Positions 23,710 through 25,831 of a stretch of 64,000 bases of DNA are shown here, in pieces. Below the pieces are notes generated by a model. It was not told the DNA's origin. It ran no database searches and saw only the letters and a program-made list of their open reading frames with translations. The position numbers and the translations under genes were made by a program. Origin of the DNA: Amycolatopsis viridis (GTDB lineage Bacteria; Actinomycetota; Actinomycetes; Mycobacteriales; Pseudonocardiaceae); the NCBI RefSeq assembly GCF_011758765.1, contig NZ_JAANOU010000001.1, positions 3,410,001-3,474,000 on the forward strand, written 5' to 3'. Positions within the stretch are counted from its first letter, which is position 1. The number at the start of each line of letters is the position of its first letter.

Positions 23710-24489
23710 TCACCCCGGCTGGCGGCGCGCGAGGACCTCCCGCGTGGCGGCGTCGGCCGGGTAGAAGGACTCGATCACCAGCTCGGCCAGCGTCACGTCC
23801 AGCGCCGTGCCGAAGGTGGCGACCATCGACATCAGGGTCAGCACGCCGTCGCCGTGGCGGAGCCGCACCGGCACGAACACCGACCCGGCCGGCGCCTCGT
23901 CCACCGGGTCGTCGCAGGGATAGCCGCTCACCTCGGTCAGCAGCGCGGCCAGATCGGCGTCGCCGGTGATCTCCACCTGCCGCCGCAGCCGGCCGAGCAG
24001 CTCGGCTCGCCACTGGCCGAGGTTGAGGACGTGCGGCGCCAGGCCACGCGGGTGGAGGGCGGCCCGCAGCACGTTGGCCGGCGGCTCCAGCAGGTCCGGG
24101 TCCACGAGGTCGGTCAGCAGCGTGATCCCGCTGTTGGACTCGACGAGGTCCCAGCCGCGGTCGAGCACCAGCGCCGGGTACGGCTCGTGCCCGGCCAGCA
24201 GGTGCCGGACCGCCTCCAGCGCCACACCCAGGTCGGGCAGCGGGGTCTGCGGGTAGACCGGGGCGTAGCCGGCGGCGAGCAGCAGCCGGTTGCGTTCCCG
24301 CAGCGGCACCTCCAGCCGTTCGCCCAGCCGCAGCACCATCTCGCGACTGGGCCGGGACCGCCCGTTCTCCAGGAAGCTCAGGTGGCGGGTGGAGATCTCG
24401 GCGGACAGGGCGAGGTCGAGCTGGCTGAGCCGGCGGCGTTCCCGCCACTGCCGCAACTGCTCGCCCACGGGGCGCTGCATGGTCGTCAC
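23710..24489 (-). CDS. XRE-family regulator with MmyB-like ligand domain
   Basis: 259 aa from GTG 24489 (ATG 24480 also possible). N-terminal HTH (about 8-63: LRQWRERRRLSQLDLALSAEISTRHLSFLENGRSRPS) joined to an MmyB-like C-terminal domain (about 95-250, LNLGQWRAELLGRLRRQV ... LTLMSMVATFGTALDVTLAELVIESFYPAD), a PAS-like fold that binds fatty acids in a characterised relative. It is divergent from the SnoaL-like gene and probably controls it. The 115-bp gap holds ATTAC-N7-GTAAT and the near-palindrome AGATCGTGATCT, both candidate operators. Confidence 0.9.
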   Translation of the reverse strand: MTTMQRPVGEQLRQWRERRRLSQLDLALSAEISTRHLSFLENGRSRPSREMVLRLGERLEVPLRERNRLLLAAGYAPVYPQTPLPDLGVALEAVRHLLAGHEPYPALVLDRGWDLVESNSGITLLTDLVDPDLLEPPANVLRAALHPRGLAPHVLNLGQWRAELLGRLRRQVEITGDADLAALLTEVSGYPCDDPVDEAPAGSVFVPVRLRHGDGVLTLMSMVATFGTALDVTLAELVIESFYPADAATREVLARRQPG

Positions 24490-24525
24490 CCCGTCGAAAG
24501 TACGGGCCGCGCCGGCGGAGCCGCC

Positions 24526-24575
24526 ATTACCTCCGGCGTAATCGACGCGCCGCGCGGTCCGGGAGATCGTGATCT
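24526..24575. promoter_or_regulatory. Candidate operators between XRE and SnoaL-like genes
   Basis: Two inverted repeats in the divergent promoter region: ATTAC-N7-GTAAT (24526-24542) and AGATC-GT-GATCT (24564-24575). Either could be the site of the XRE regulator; neither is a known motif. Confidence 0.3.
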
Positions 24576-24604
24576 GGTCACACCGACCCGATCAGGAGGA
24601 TCCG

Positions 24605-24967
24605 ATGACCGACTACACCACCCTCGCCCAGCGCTACATCGACGTGTGGAACACCACCGACGCGGACAAGCGCCGGGCGCTGGTGGAGGACCTGTTCACC
24701 CCCGGCGCCACCTACACCGATCCGCTGGGCGCGGTGCAGGGCACCGACGGGATCGACGGGTTCGTCGCCGGGGCGCAGGCGCAGTTCGCGGGGCTGGAGT
24801 TCCGCCTCGGCGGCGCCGTCGACGGCCACCACGACCAGGCCCGGTTCACGTGGCACCTGGGGGCACCCGGGGAGGCGGAGCCGCTCGTGATCGGCTTCGA
24901 CGTCGTCACTACCGTGGACGGGCGGATCAACCAGGTGCTGGGATTTCTGGACAAGCTGCCCAGCTAG
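24605..24967 (+). CDS. SnoaL-like / NTF2-fold protein
   Basis: 120 aa, one SnoaL-like domain (YIDVWNTTDADKRRALVEDLFTPGATYTDPLGAVQGTDGIDGFVAGAQAQF ... VVTTVDGRINQVLGFLDKLPS). Such proteins are small ligand-binding or isomerase-like proteins; substrate unknown. A near-perfect AGGAGG lies 6 nt before ATG 24605. It is divergent from the XRE regulator. It occupies the place where gcvP would lie in the conserved gcvH-garA neighbourhood, and its 3' end faces an antisense glycine riboswitch. Confidence 0.88.
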   Translation: MTDYTTLAQRYIDVWNTTDADKRRALVEDLFTPGATYTDPLGAVQGTDGIDGFVAGAQAQFAGLEFRLGGAVDGHHDQARFTWHLGAPGEAEPLVIGFDVVTTVDGRINQVLGFLDKLPS

Positions 24968-24980
24968 GGTCCCGCGGCCC

Positions 24981-25004
24981 GGCCCGGACCCCCGGGTCCG
25001 GGCC
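24981..25004. terminator. Bidirectional terminator hairpin
   Basis: GGCCCGGACCC-CC-GGGTCCGGGCC, a perfect 11-bp inverted repeat 13 nt after the SnoaL-like stop. On the minus strand it comes directly after the glycine riboswitch, so it may also end, or be the expression platform of, that transcript. No T-tract on either side. Confidence 0.75.
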
Positions 25005-25010
25005 CTCCCC

Positions 25011-25217
25011 ACTCTGTCGTGCCCATGGGCGCCTGAGAGGTTCGCCCGAGTGTTGAGCCGGGCTTGCACCGTCGGCGGGGCACGACGGAGTTGTGCCCGT
25101 CGGCCCGCTTTCCAGAGGCGTCTCGTCCGCGCGGTCCGGGGTGCCTGAGAGGTTCCGGGGAGGACTTGCTCCTTCGGCGCCGGGCACGATGGTGGTGGCC
25201 CGGTCTCTCCCGCGCGG
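25011..25217 (-). ncRNA. Tandem glycine riboswitch (orphan)
   Basis: Read on the minus strand. Aptamer 1: GGGAGAGACC (25211-25202), GCCGAAGGAGCAAG (25178-25165) and CCTCTCAGGCACC (25152-25140). Linker and aptamer 2: CTCTGGA (25117-25111), GCCGACGGTGCAAGCC (25076-25061), CCTCTCAGGCGCC (25040-25028) and GACAGAGT (25018-25011). These are the conserved elements of both glycine aptamers, in order and in Bacillus-like spacing. It lies 3' of the second MerR gene, where gcvP stands in relatives, but the DNA beyond it is a hairpin and a gene on the other strand. No glycine gene follows within the window. Confidence 0.95.
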
Positions 25218-25264
25218 CTTCGGCGACTGCGCTCAGTACCCTACTCCCCGGTTCGGGAAGACGA

Positions 25265-25831
25265 TCATCCGGTACGGCGGGCGTTGCGGCGCTGGGTGAG
25301 CTCGTCCGGGGCGGCCGGCTCCACCTGGCCCCCATCGGCGCGTTCGGCGGGGAACTCGTGCAGGGTGCCGCTGATTTCCTGCATGGGGACCTTCACCGCG
25401 ATGCCGAAGACACCCTGCCCGCCCTGGAGCAGATCCACGATCTCCTCCGGCGAGGTGCACTCGTAGACGGTGGTGCCGTCGGAGACCAGGGTGACCTTCG
25501 CCAGGTCACGCGCCCCGCGCTTGCGCAGGTGCTCGACGGCCACGCGGATGTTCTGCAGCGAGACGCCCGTGTCGAGTAAACGCTTGACGATCTTGAGGGC
25601 GAGGATGTCCTTGAACGAGTAGAGCCGCTGCGATCCCGATCCGTGGGCCGTGCGGATGCTGGGCGCGACCAGCCCGGTGCGCGCCCAGTAGTCCAGCTGG
25701 CGGTAGGTGATGCCGGCGATCTGACAGGCCGCGGGACCCCGGTATCCGACCAGCTCGTCAGGCAGTGACGAGTCCGGGAAGAGCTCACCCTGCTCTCCCG
25801 GCACGACCTGAACCGGCCCTTCGTCGACCAC
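25265..25831 (-). CDS. MerR-family regulator (Rv1830-like)
   Basis: 188 aa. The winged HTH (YRGPAACQIAGITYRQLDYWARTGLVAPSIRTAHGSGSQRLYSFKDILALKIVKRLLDTGVSLQNIRVAVEHLRKRG, about 30-105) is followed by a small C-terminal domain (VSDGTTVYECTSPEEIVDLLQGGQGVFGIAVKVPMQEISGTL). Its place after bfn matches Rv1830 of M. tuberculosis, a regulator linked there to cell division and antibiotic response. GTG 25831 is chosen because GGGGAGG lies 6 nt upstream; a longer in-frame start lacks support. Its own promoter is needed because a terminator separates it from bfn. Confidence 0.92.
   Translation of the reverse strand: MVDEGPVQVVPGEQGELFPDSSLPDELVGYRGPAACQIAGITYRQLDYWARTGLVAPSIRTAHGSGSQRLYSFKDILALKIVKRLLDTGVSLQNIRVAVEHLRKRGARDLAKVTLVSDGTTVYECTSPEEIVDLLQGGQGVFGIAVKVPMQEISGTLHEFPAERADGGQVEPAAPDELTQRRNARRTG

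Follow-up and report, generated by a model that had tools for sequence, protein, structure and literature searches.

Repeated loss of gcvP has left behind a conserved tandem glycine riboswitch, possibly a stand-alone glycine-sensing RNA, in Amycolatopsis viridis and its relatives

Glycine riboswitches usually reside in the 5′ leader of a gene for glycine metabolism or transport, such as gcvP, and riboswitches in general are usually interpreted through the gene that lies behind them. What, then, does such an element do when that gene is gone? The question is raised by a 64,000-nucleotide stretch of the Amycolatopsis viridis genome (the window), in which a complete tandem glycine riboswitch (25004-25222, minus strand) lies between a MerR-family gene and a convergent SnoaL-like gene, which is the next gene, with no gcvP behind it. 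A reading made from the sequence alone had described two complete aptamers and proposed that either gcvP was lost or moved and the riboswitch stayed behind, or that the RNA now acts by itself, for example as an antisense RNA against the SnoaL-like gene. The comparisons described below lean, if narrowly, toward a short glycine-binding RNA that stands alone, has its own promoter, is under selection and would act away from its locus.

Both aptamers were borne out by matches above the curated Rfam cut-off (Table 1); the cmscan tables print aptamer 1 alone, aptamer 2 being left out as an overlapping (4 nt), lower-scoring match of the same clan. A tandem covariance model (R1) built from 22 gcvP-linked copies alone matched the window at 25006-25229 with 203.8 bits (E 1.8e-56). 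Protein profiles also confirmed the gene order given in the sequence-only reading, which runs cardiolipin synthase/PgsA-like, GcvH, OdhI/GarA, FtsR, bifunctional nuclease and MerR upstream of the element and, downstream of it, SnoaL on the plus strand and XRE.

Table 1. Features of the orphan riboswitch locus, in window coordinates
Feature	Position	Strand	Evidence or remark
XRE regulator with MLTR_LBD domain	23710-24489	minus	PF17765, PF01381; start about 530 nt after GACAGAG, co-directional with the RNA
SnoaL-like (SnoaL_2) gene, convergent	24605-24967	plus	PF12680
GC-rich hairpin, 10 pairs, without U-tail here	24981-25004	minus	Proposed 3′ end of the short RNA
GACAGAG + TGGGGAGG	25004-25018	minus	3′ strand of aptamer 2 P1; in gcvP-linked leaders, the stretch taken up by the hairpin that competes with P1
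Glycine aptamer 2	25004-25125	minus	Rfam RF00504, 45.5 bits; gathering score 32
Glycine aptamer 1	25122-25222	minus	Rfam RF00504, 56.6 bits, E 5.2e-9
-10-like box TAGGGT (TAnnnT)	25238-25243	minus	Predicted own promoter of the RNA
MerR-family regulator gene, constant upstream neighbour	25265-25831	minus	PF13411, 1.2e-14

The genome that contains the window is a single contig of 5.68 Mb and is 95.4% complete. A genome-wide search for gcvP, gcvT and further glycine riboswitches, which had been suggested as a check, located gcvP (940 aa, TIGR00461) elsewhere, at G000:C1:1591258, where a second tandem glycine riboswitch stands directly before it and gcvT comes next. A third tandem glycine riboswitch was found before gcvH-glyA-sdaA (G000:C1:4218220-4218404, locus L039). 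Under strict filters, matches at a third site were seen in only three of the 19 genomes of the same genus (G000, G001 and G003).

The arrangement in the window is not peculiar to this strain. Nineteen of the 41 genomes surveyed (the window genome and 40 others) belong to its own genus, and in all of them MerR is followed by the riboswitch without gcvP, gcvP being found elsewhere behind a separate glycine riboswitch. GACAGAG and the letters that follow it, TGGGGAGG, are the same in the alignment of all 19. A 15-letter motif of the orphan was present in 78 of 390 genomes of the family, namely all 19 of the own genus, 56 in a sister genus and three elsewhere (G160, G315 and G320, from two other genera, with one occurrence each).

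All 80 sister-genus genomes of the family list were then read at the MerR locus. Riboswitch and gcvP were found within 1.5 kb in 52, gcvP was absent from the stretch examined in 27, and one locus (L220) ends at a contig end and is counted with neither. MerR precedes the riboswitch in 77 of the 80, as it does in 19/19 genomes of the own genus. The full tandem riboswitch is kept in 24 of the 27 gcvP-less loci, the exceptions being L211 and L230, which have no riboswitch, and L214, in which it has decayed. Taken with the own genus, 43 of 46 gcvP-less loci retain the complete element. When the 27 gcvP-less genomes were searched, along with two control genomes that bear the resident gcvP (gcvP1), each of the 27 proved to have, at another place, a single gcvP that scored above the cut-off and was preceded by a glycine riboswitch match no more than 300 nt away.

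Outside these two genera, MerR, riboswitch and gcvP follow one another in nine outgroup loci (L058, L061, L065, L068, L072, L073, L074, L096 and L097). An extra gene separates MerR from the riboswitch in L067, and in others the gcvP riboswitch does not adjoin MerR. Among named MerR loci (the best 80 of a longer list, a few genomes of which overlap the other sets), gcvP lies downstream with a riboswitch between in 75, of which the motif finds 72 and R1 the other three. The remaining five have no gcvP in the stretch examined; the riboswitch is present in A. deserti and A. thermalba, and none was found at the MerR locus of A. antarctica, Prauserella endophytica or Pseudonocardia sp. N23. The latter two are riboswitch-less, gcvP-less loci beyond the 46. 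The element is thus dispensable, having been lost or having decayed in three of the 46 loci and being absent from these two.

The history of gcvP was examined with a tree built from the N-terminal portions of 75 GcvP proteins (DISPLACEMENT; quick search, SH-aLRT support; the candidate locus L080 gave no match). The gcvPT copies of the own genus are monophyletic (97) and nested in a larger clade (100) that also contains the second copies of the sister genus (gcvP2). The gcvP1 copies behind MerR stand apart and cluster with gcvP genes from the family's other genera (90-94). From this phylogeny, gcvP2 probably arrived ahead of the split between the two genera, and the loss of gcvP1 came afterwards. 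As the gcvP-less genomes carry another gcvP of a different clade, the resident gene was displaced rather than moved. The first alternative of the sequence-only reading therefore holds in part: gcvP is gone and the riboswitch was left, but its suggestion that gcvP had moved is rejected, since the gcvP of the own genus belongs to the gcvP2 clade shared with the sister genus.

A six-gene tree that spans 105 loci requires the gcvP state to have changed at least five times; if gcvP1 was never regained, seven losses are counted (L211; L217 with L219; L204 with four others; L193; the own genus; a clade of 17; and L212), a number that is an estimate, as the tree comes from a quick search and several of its deep forks have supports of 80-93. 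SnoaL lies behind gcvP in 23 of the 52 gcvP-bearing sister-genus loci, 22 of which have XRE as well; the other 29 have no SnoaL in the stretch examined. The order in these 23 loci indicates that gcvP was excised from between the riboswitch and SnoaL in the gcvP-less lineages. The ancestral locus was probably MerR, glycine riboswitch, gcvP1, SnoaL and XRE, as it still is in 22 sister-genus genomes. Synteny and the trees suggest that gcvP2 entered with its own glycine riboswitch before the genera split and that gcvP1 was then deleted repeatedly, with one deletion at the base of the own genus.

Upstream of the aptamers, a TAnnnT box stands at one of two adjacent offsets from the motif GGGAGAG in 43/43 orphans and in 52/52 gcvP-linked copies. 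In mononucleotide shuffles, TAnnnT occurred anywhere in the 24-nt range in a mean of only 1.3 of 19, 1.6 of 24 and 4.2 of 52 sequences. The box is missing, by eye, from the decayed copy in L214. A consensus scan of positions 24500-25400 returned no sigma-70 promoter and no T-tailed terminator, a T-tail being required by the terminator scan.

The putative start signal bears on the main rival explanation, which we regard as rather unlikely: that the riboswitch belongs to the merR mRNA, senses glycine at its 3′ end and determines where that mRNA ends or how stable it is. Every one of the 43 orphans has MerR upstream, and the merR stop codon is 43-52 nt from GGGAGAG in 33 of them, a gap so short that read-through from merR is likely. 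The spacing of the -10-like box to the aptamers is nevertheless fixed in 43/43, despite a gap between MerR and the riboswitch that ranges from 28 to 214 nt in the orphans. Moreover, merR occurs without any riboswitch in L211, L230, Prauserella endophytica and Pseudonocardia sp. N23.

Beyond the aptamers, all 19 loci of the own genus have a hairpin with a stem of at least 10 pairs that starts at or inside GGGGAGG (G-U pairs and one mismatch allowed), and it precedes SnoaL in the 16 loci that have this gene. Five of its pairs show double changes, which 2 of 500 shuffles reach, and its covariation score was reached by none of 500. On the riboswitch strand, a clear T-run follows the hairpin in three of the 19 loci (L047, L057 and L076); the same was seen in L221 and L229 of the sister genus. 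In six sister-genus orphans (L193, L203, L210, L212, L216 and L226), the hairpin was no better than shuffles (z above -0.6). The whole RNA folds no better than dinucleotide shuffles (z -0.04), and inspection by eye of the 19-sequence alignment for a small protein behind the riboswitch revealed no conserved start codon after GGGGAGG.

The hairpin also differs from that of gcvP-linked leaders in its relation to the aptamers. In the 39 leaders with gcvP close by, the GTGGGG after aptamer 2 is hairpin-paired (mean 0.94), several having CCCCAC downstream, and forcing P1 of aptamer 2 costs a mean of 8.2 kcal/mol. The cost is 1.7 kcal/mol in the 19 orphans of the own genus and 2.4 in the 24 of the sister genus, all of these values being predictions from secondary structure without ligand or tertiary contacts. 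At 2.7 kcal/mol, the 14 rows in which gcvP is further off (13) or cut off (L220) show as little competition as the orphans. P1 is favoured in no group without ligand (mean probability 0.25 in own-genus orphans, 0.29 in sister-genus orphans and 0.02 where gcvP is close). By these energies, no expression platform competing with P1 was found in the own genus. The modeling suggests that competition with aptamer 2 P1 has largely been lost in the orphans and that, in the own genus, a covarying, uncoupled hairpin would have replaced the competing one. A GC-rich palindrome that recurs across genomes, GGGGGTGC...CCCCC, was also noted in 8 of the 13 sister-genus loci with gcvP1 further off (L166, L170, L172, L181, L218, L222, L223 and L225), where it sits in the 194-428 nt stretch between GACAGAG and gcvP.

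A second explanation is that the element yields a glycine-controlled antisense RNA, in which read-through past the hairpin would cover SnoaL and might reach XRE, comparable to the B12-controlled AspocR. SnoaL is convergent in 37 of the 43 orphans, in the 16 own-genus loci that have it the gene ends at a distance of 46-57 nt from GACAGAG, and XRE lies co-directionally about 530 nt on in those same 16 of 19. We nonetheless consider this explanation unlikely. The riboswitch is kept where there is no SnoaL in the stretch examined (6/43: L047, L076, L077, L212, L217 and L219), and in 14 of the 21 sister-genus orphans that have SnoaL the gene lies 111-475 nt from GACAGAG. In the own genus, the covarying hairpin intervenes, hardly competes with P1 and gives no visible read-through switch. 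As SnoaL stands behind gcvP in 23 of the 52 gcvP-bearing loci, its closeness in the orphans follows from the deletion of gcvP. Control of SnoaL, which had been offered as an example of the RNA acting by itself, is thus not supported as a general role; antisense read-through may still occur in some species.

Another explanation is that the riboswitch controls in cis whichever co-directional gene is now downstream: XRE in the window, XRE directly in L217 and L219, and in L076 and L077 a gene that we take to be aldo/keto reductase-like. Co-directional genes do begin at 88-236 nt in these four loci and at 289 nt in L212, as judged from the starts called by a custom script, of which that in L076 is possibly cut short. 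Such control is improbable given that no gene is common to the orphans, that the next four genes in L047 are on the opposite strand, and that over 2 kb separate XRE and MerR in 10 of the 24 sister-genus orphans, with no XRE in the stretch examined in L212. Control of XRE or of a reductase as a general role is not supported, as the downstream genes differ among the orphans. Neither SnoaL nor XRE was found in L076 and L077, which have the co-directional reductase-like gene instead, preceded in L076 by a hairpin with six T.

The degree of constraint was estimated by comparing aptamer divergence with that of fourfold-degenerate sites, using means over pairs of genomes, which are not independent. 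At a fourfold-site difference of 0.2, aptamers differ by 0.047 in the own genus and by 0.051 when all 43 orphans are taken together, and the 52 gcvP-linked copies differ by 0.059; at 0.3, the values, in the same order, are 0.090, 0.096 and 0.101. At 0.4 the orphans differ more (0.156 in the own genus and 0.178 in all, versus 0.128 in gcvP-linked copies). Judged from these alignments, orphan aptamers appear to diverge about as slowly as gcvP-linked ones.

R1, when searched against 81 sources, scored all 43 orphans at 170-243 bits, and 34 gcvP-linked copies outside its training set at 226-248 bits (the gcvP-linked L171 and L180 were left out of the scoring). Neither L211 nor L230 gave a match with an E value of 1 or lower. 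The decayed copy (L214:5254-5426) scored 55 bits; by eye, its aptamer 1 is changed and its aptamer 2 is not recognisable, making this locus a natural control for the appearance of riboswitch loss. In an alignment fitted to the model, 18 pairs of the orphan aptamers are altered on both sides, which none of 500 shuffles reached. The core motifs of the glycine aptamer are kept in the orphan sequences, with one change in the aptamer 1 core, in L077. By eye, nothing is conserved in orphans that is missing from gcvP-linked copies, and no obvious candidate emerges for a seed that would pair with a target. We also considered whether the conservation arose because another riboswitch in the genome had been copied onto this one, which was not supported: with gaps left out, the window copy equals that of L179, which is gcvP1-linked, at 188 of 208 aligned letters, versus 145/173 for the gcvPT copy and 145/179 for the gcvH-glyA-sdaA copy of its own genome.

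These data leave very little room for the orphan being a dying relic without function. As such an account would have it, the element no longer has its own gene, and decay or outright loss has befallen three of the 46 copies; against this, box and aptamers are kept in 43/46 loci after repeated gcvP losses, and own-genus aptamers have a mean difference of 0.119, the corresponding means being 0.325 for fourfold sites and 0.422 for the adjoining upstream DNA. The least tenable explanation, a misassembly that hides a gcvP really adjoining the riboswitch, which the sequence-only reading had named as a threat to its case, is for practical purposes excluded by the same junction in 19/19 own-genus genomes, five of them single contigs (G000, G001, G003, G006 and G013), and by the location of gcvP elsewhere with a separate riboswitch.

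We return, then, to a stand-alone glycine-sensing RNA. The 43 orphans have no downstream gene in common and share only the box, the aptamers and the upstream MerR, which favours a short RNA that is started independently. In line with the other alternative of the sequence-only reading, the RNA looks like one that works on its own. Comparison of the genomes demonstrates, at the level of sequence, loss of gcvP1 with gcvP2 elsewhere, retention of the riboswitch, constraint on it, the box and the changed hairpin. What survived of the leader is the -10-like box and both aptamers, with, in the own genus, the strong covarying hairpin as a probable 3′ end. We infer that the promoter yields an RNA of about 250 nt that terminates at the hairpin whether glycine is bound or not, and that glycine binding would alter its fold, the RNA then acting in trans, elsewhere in the cell, by pairing or by binding a protein.

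More tentatively, and at somewhat less than an even chance, we hypothesize that the element is an RNA gene for sensing a metabolite, in which a promoter and a terminator of its own flank a tandem glycine aptamer and no cis gene is left. In this view, selection has kept it after repeated gene loss, and its role in trans would be older than the losses. The greater age of that role is suggested by the sister-genus aptamers being kept about equally whether gcvP1 is close, further off or absent. Before gcvP1 was lost, the RNA may have been a by-product of termination in the leader with a second role.

The interest of the locus is that a sensor has been kept here while its gene was removed repeatedly. 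Natural controls come from the 99 comparable loci, some of which have gcvP, while others lack it or lack the riboswitch, and they allow one to ask what role a riboswitch leader can have beyond control in cis and how a trans-acting sensor RNA originates. In Amycolatopsis, the orphan may bring to light a level of glycine and one-carbon regulation that has so far gone unnoticed.

Among the matches listed in the open-licence literature, there was no stand-alone glycine riboswitch. The word "orphan" occurs 0 times in the main text of a 2025 survey of contiguous riboswitches (PMC12452182), and sRNA studies of Streptomyces clavuligerus and Sinorhizobium name glycine riboswitches, in the passages that concern them, only as conserved or leader elements (PMC11678152, PMC2573895). 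In Clostridioides difficile, an orphan riboswitch with no known function is listed between CD2517 and CD2517.1; we interpret it from its position in the table as a c-di-GMP riboswitch, and the passage gives no comparative evidence for it (PMC11477304).

The tandem glycine riboswitch of Bacillus subtilis gcvT (RF00504) is described as an ON switch that operates through a terminator (PMC5666159). The orphan resembles that leader in its two aptamers, conserved cores and tandem layout, and the hairpin of its gcvP-linked relatives, which competes with aptamer 2 P1, appears comparable to the gcvT terminator as described there. Unlike the gcvT leader, the orphan has no regulated downstream gene and hardly any competing hairpin. 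Other parallels lie in Listeria. According to the relevant section of a review (PMC8079631), the vitamin B12 riboswitches of AspocR and Rli55 control non-coding RNAs, and read-through gives a longer RNA that is antisense to pocR or carries an ANTAR element. The likeness is that of a riboswitch governing a non-coding RNA instead of a protein gene; in contrast to these B12 systems as described, no conserved longer part was found in the orphan, and its hairpin is largely uncoupled from the aptamer. The same section presents SreA and SreB as SAM riboswitches, of which terminated SreA pairs in trans with the prfA mRNA. SreA, as portrayed there, still controls its own operon in cis, unlike the orphan, whose cis gene is gone. 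Before the loss of gcvP1, the orphan may have worked as SreA does, and it resembles SreA as a putative short RNA from a riboswitch leader that is possibly active away from its locus.
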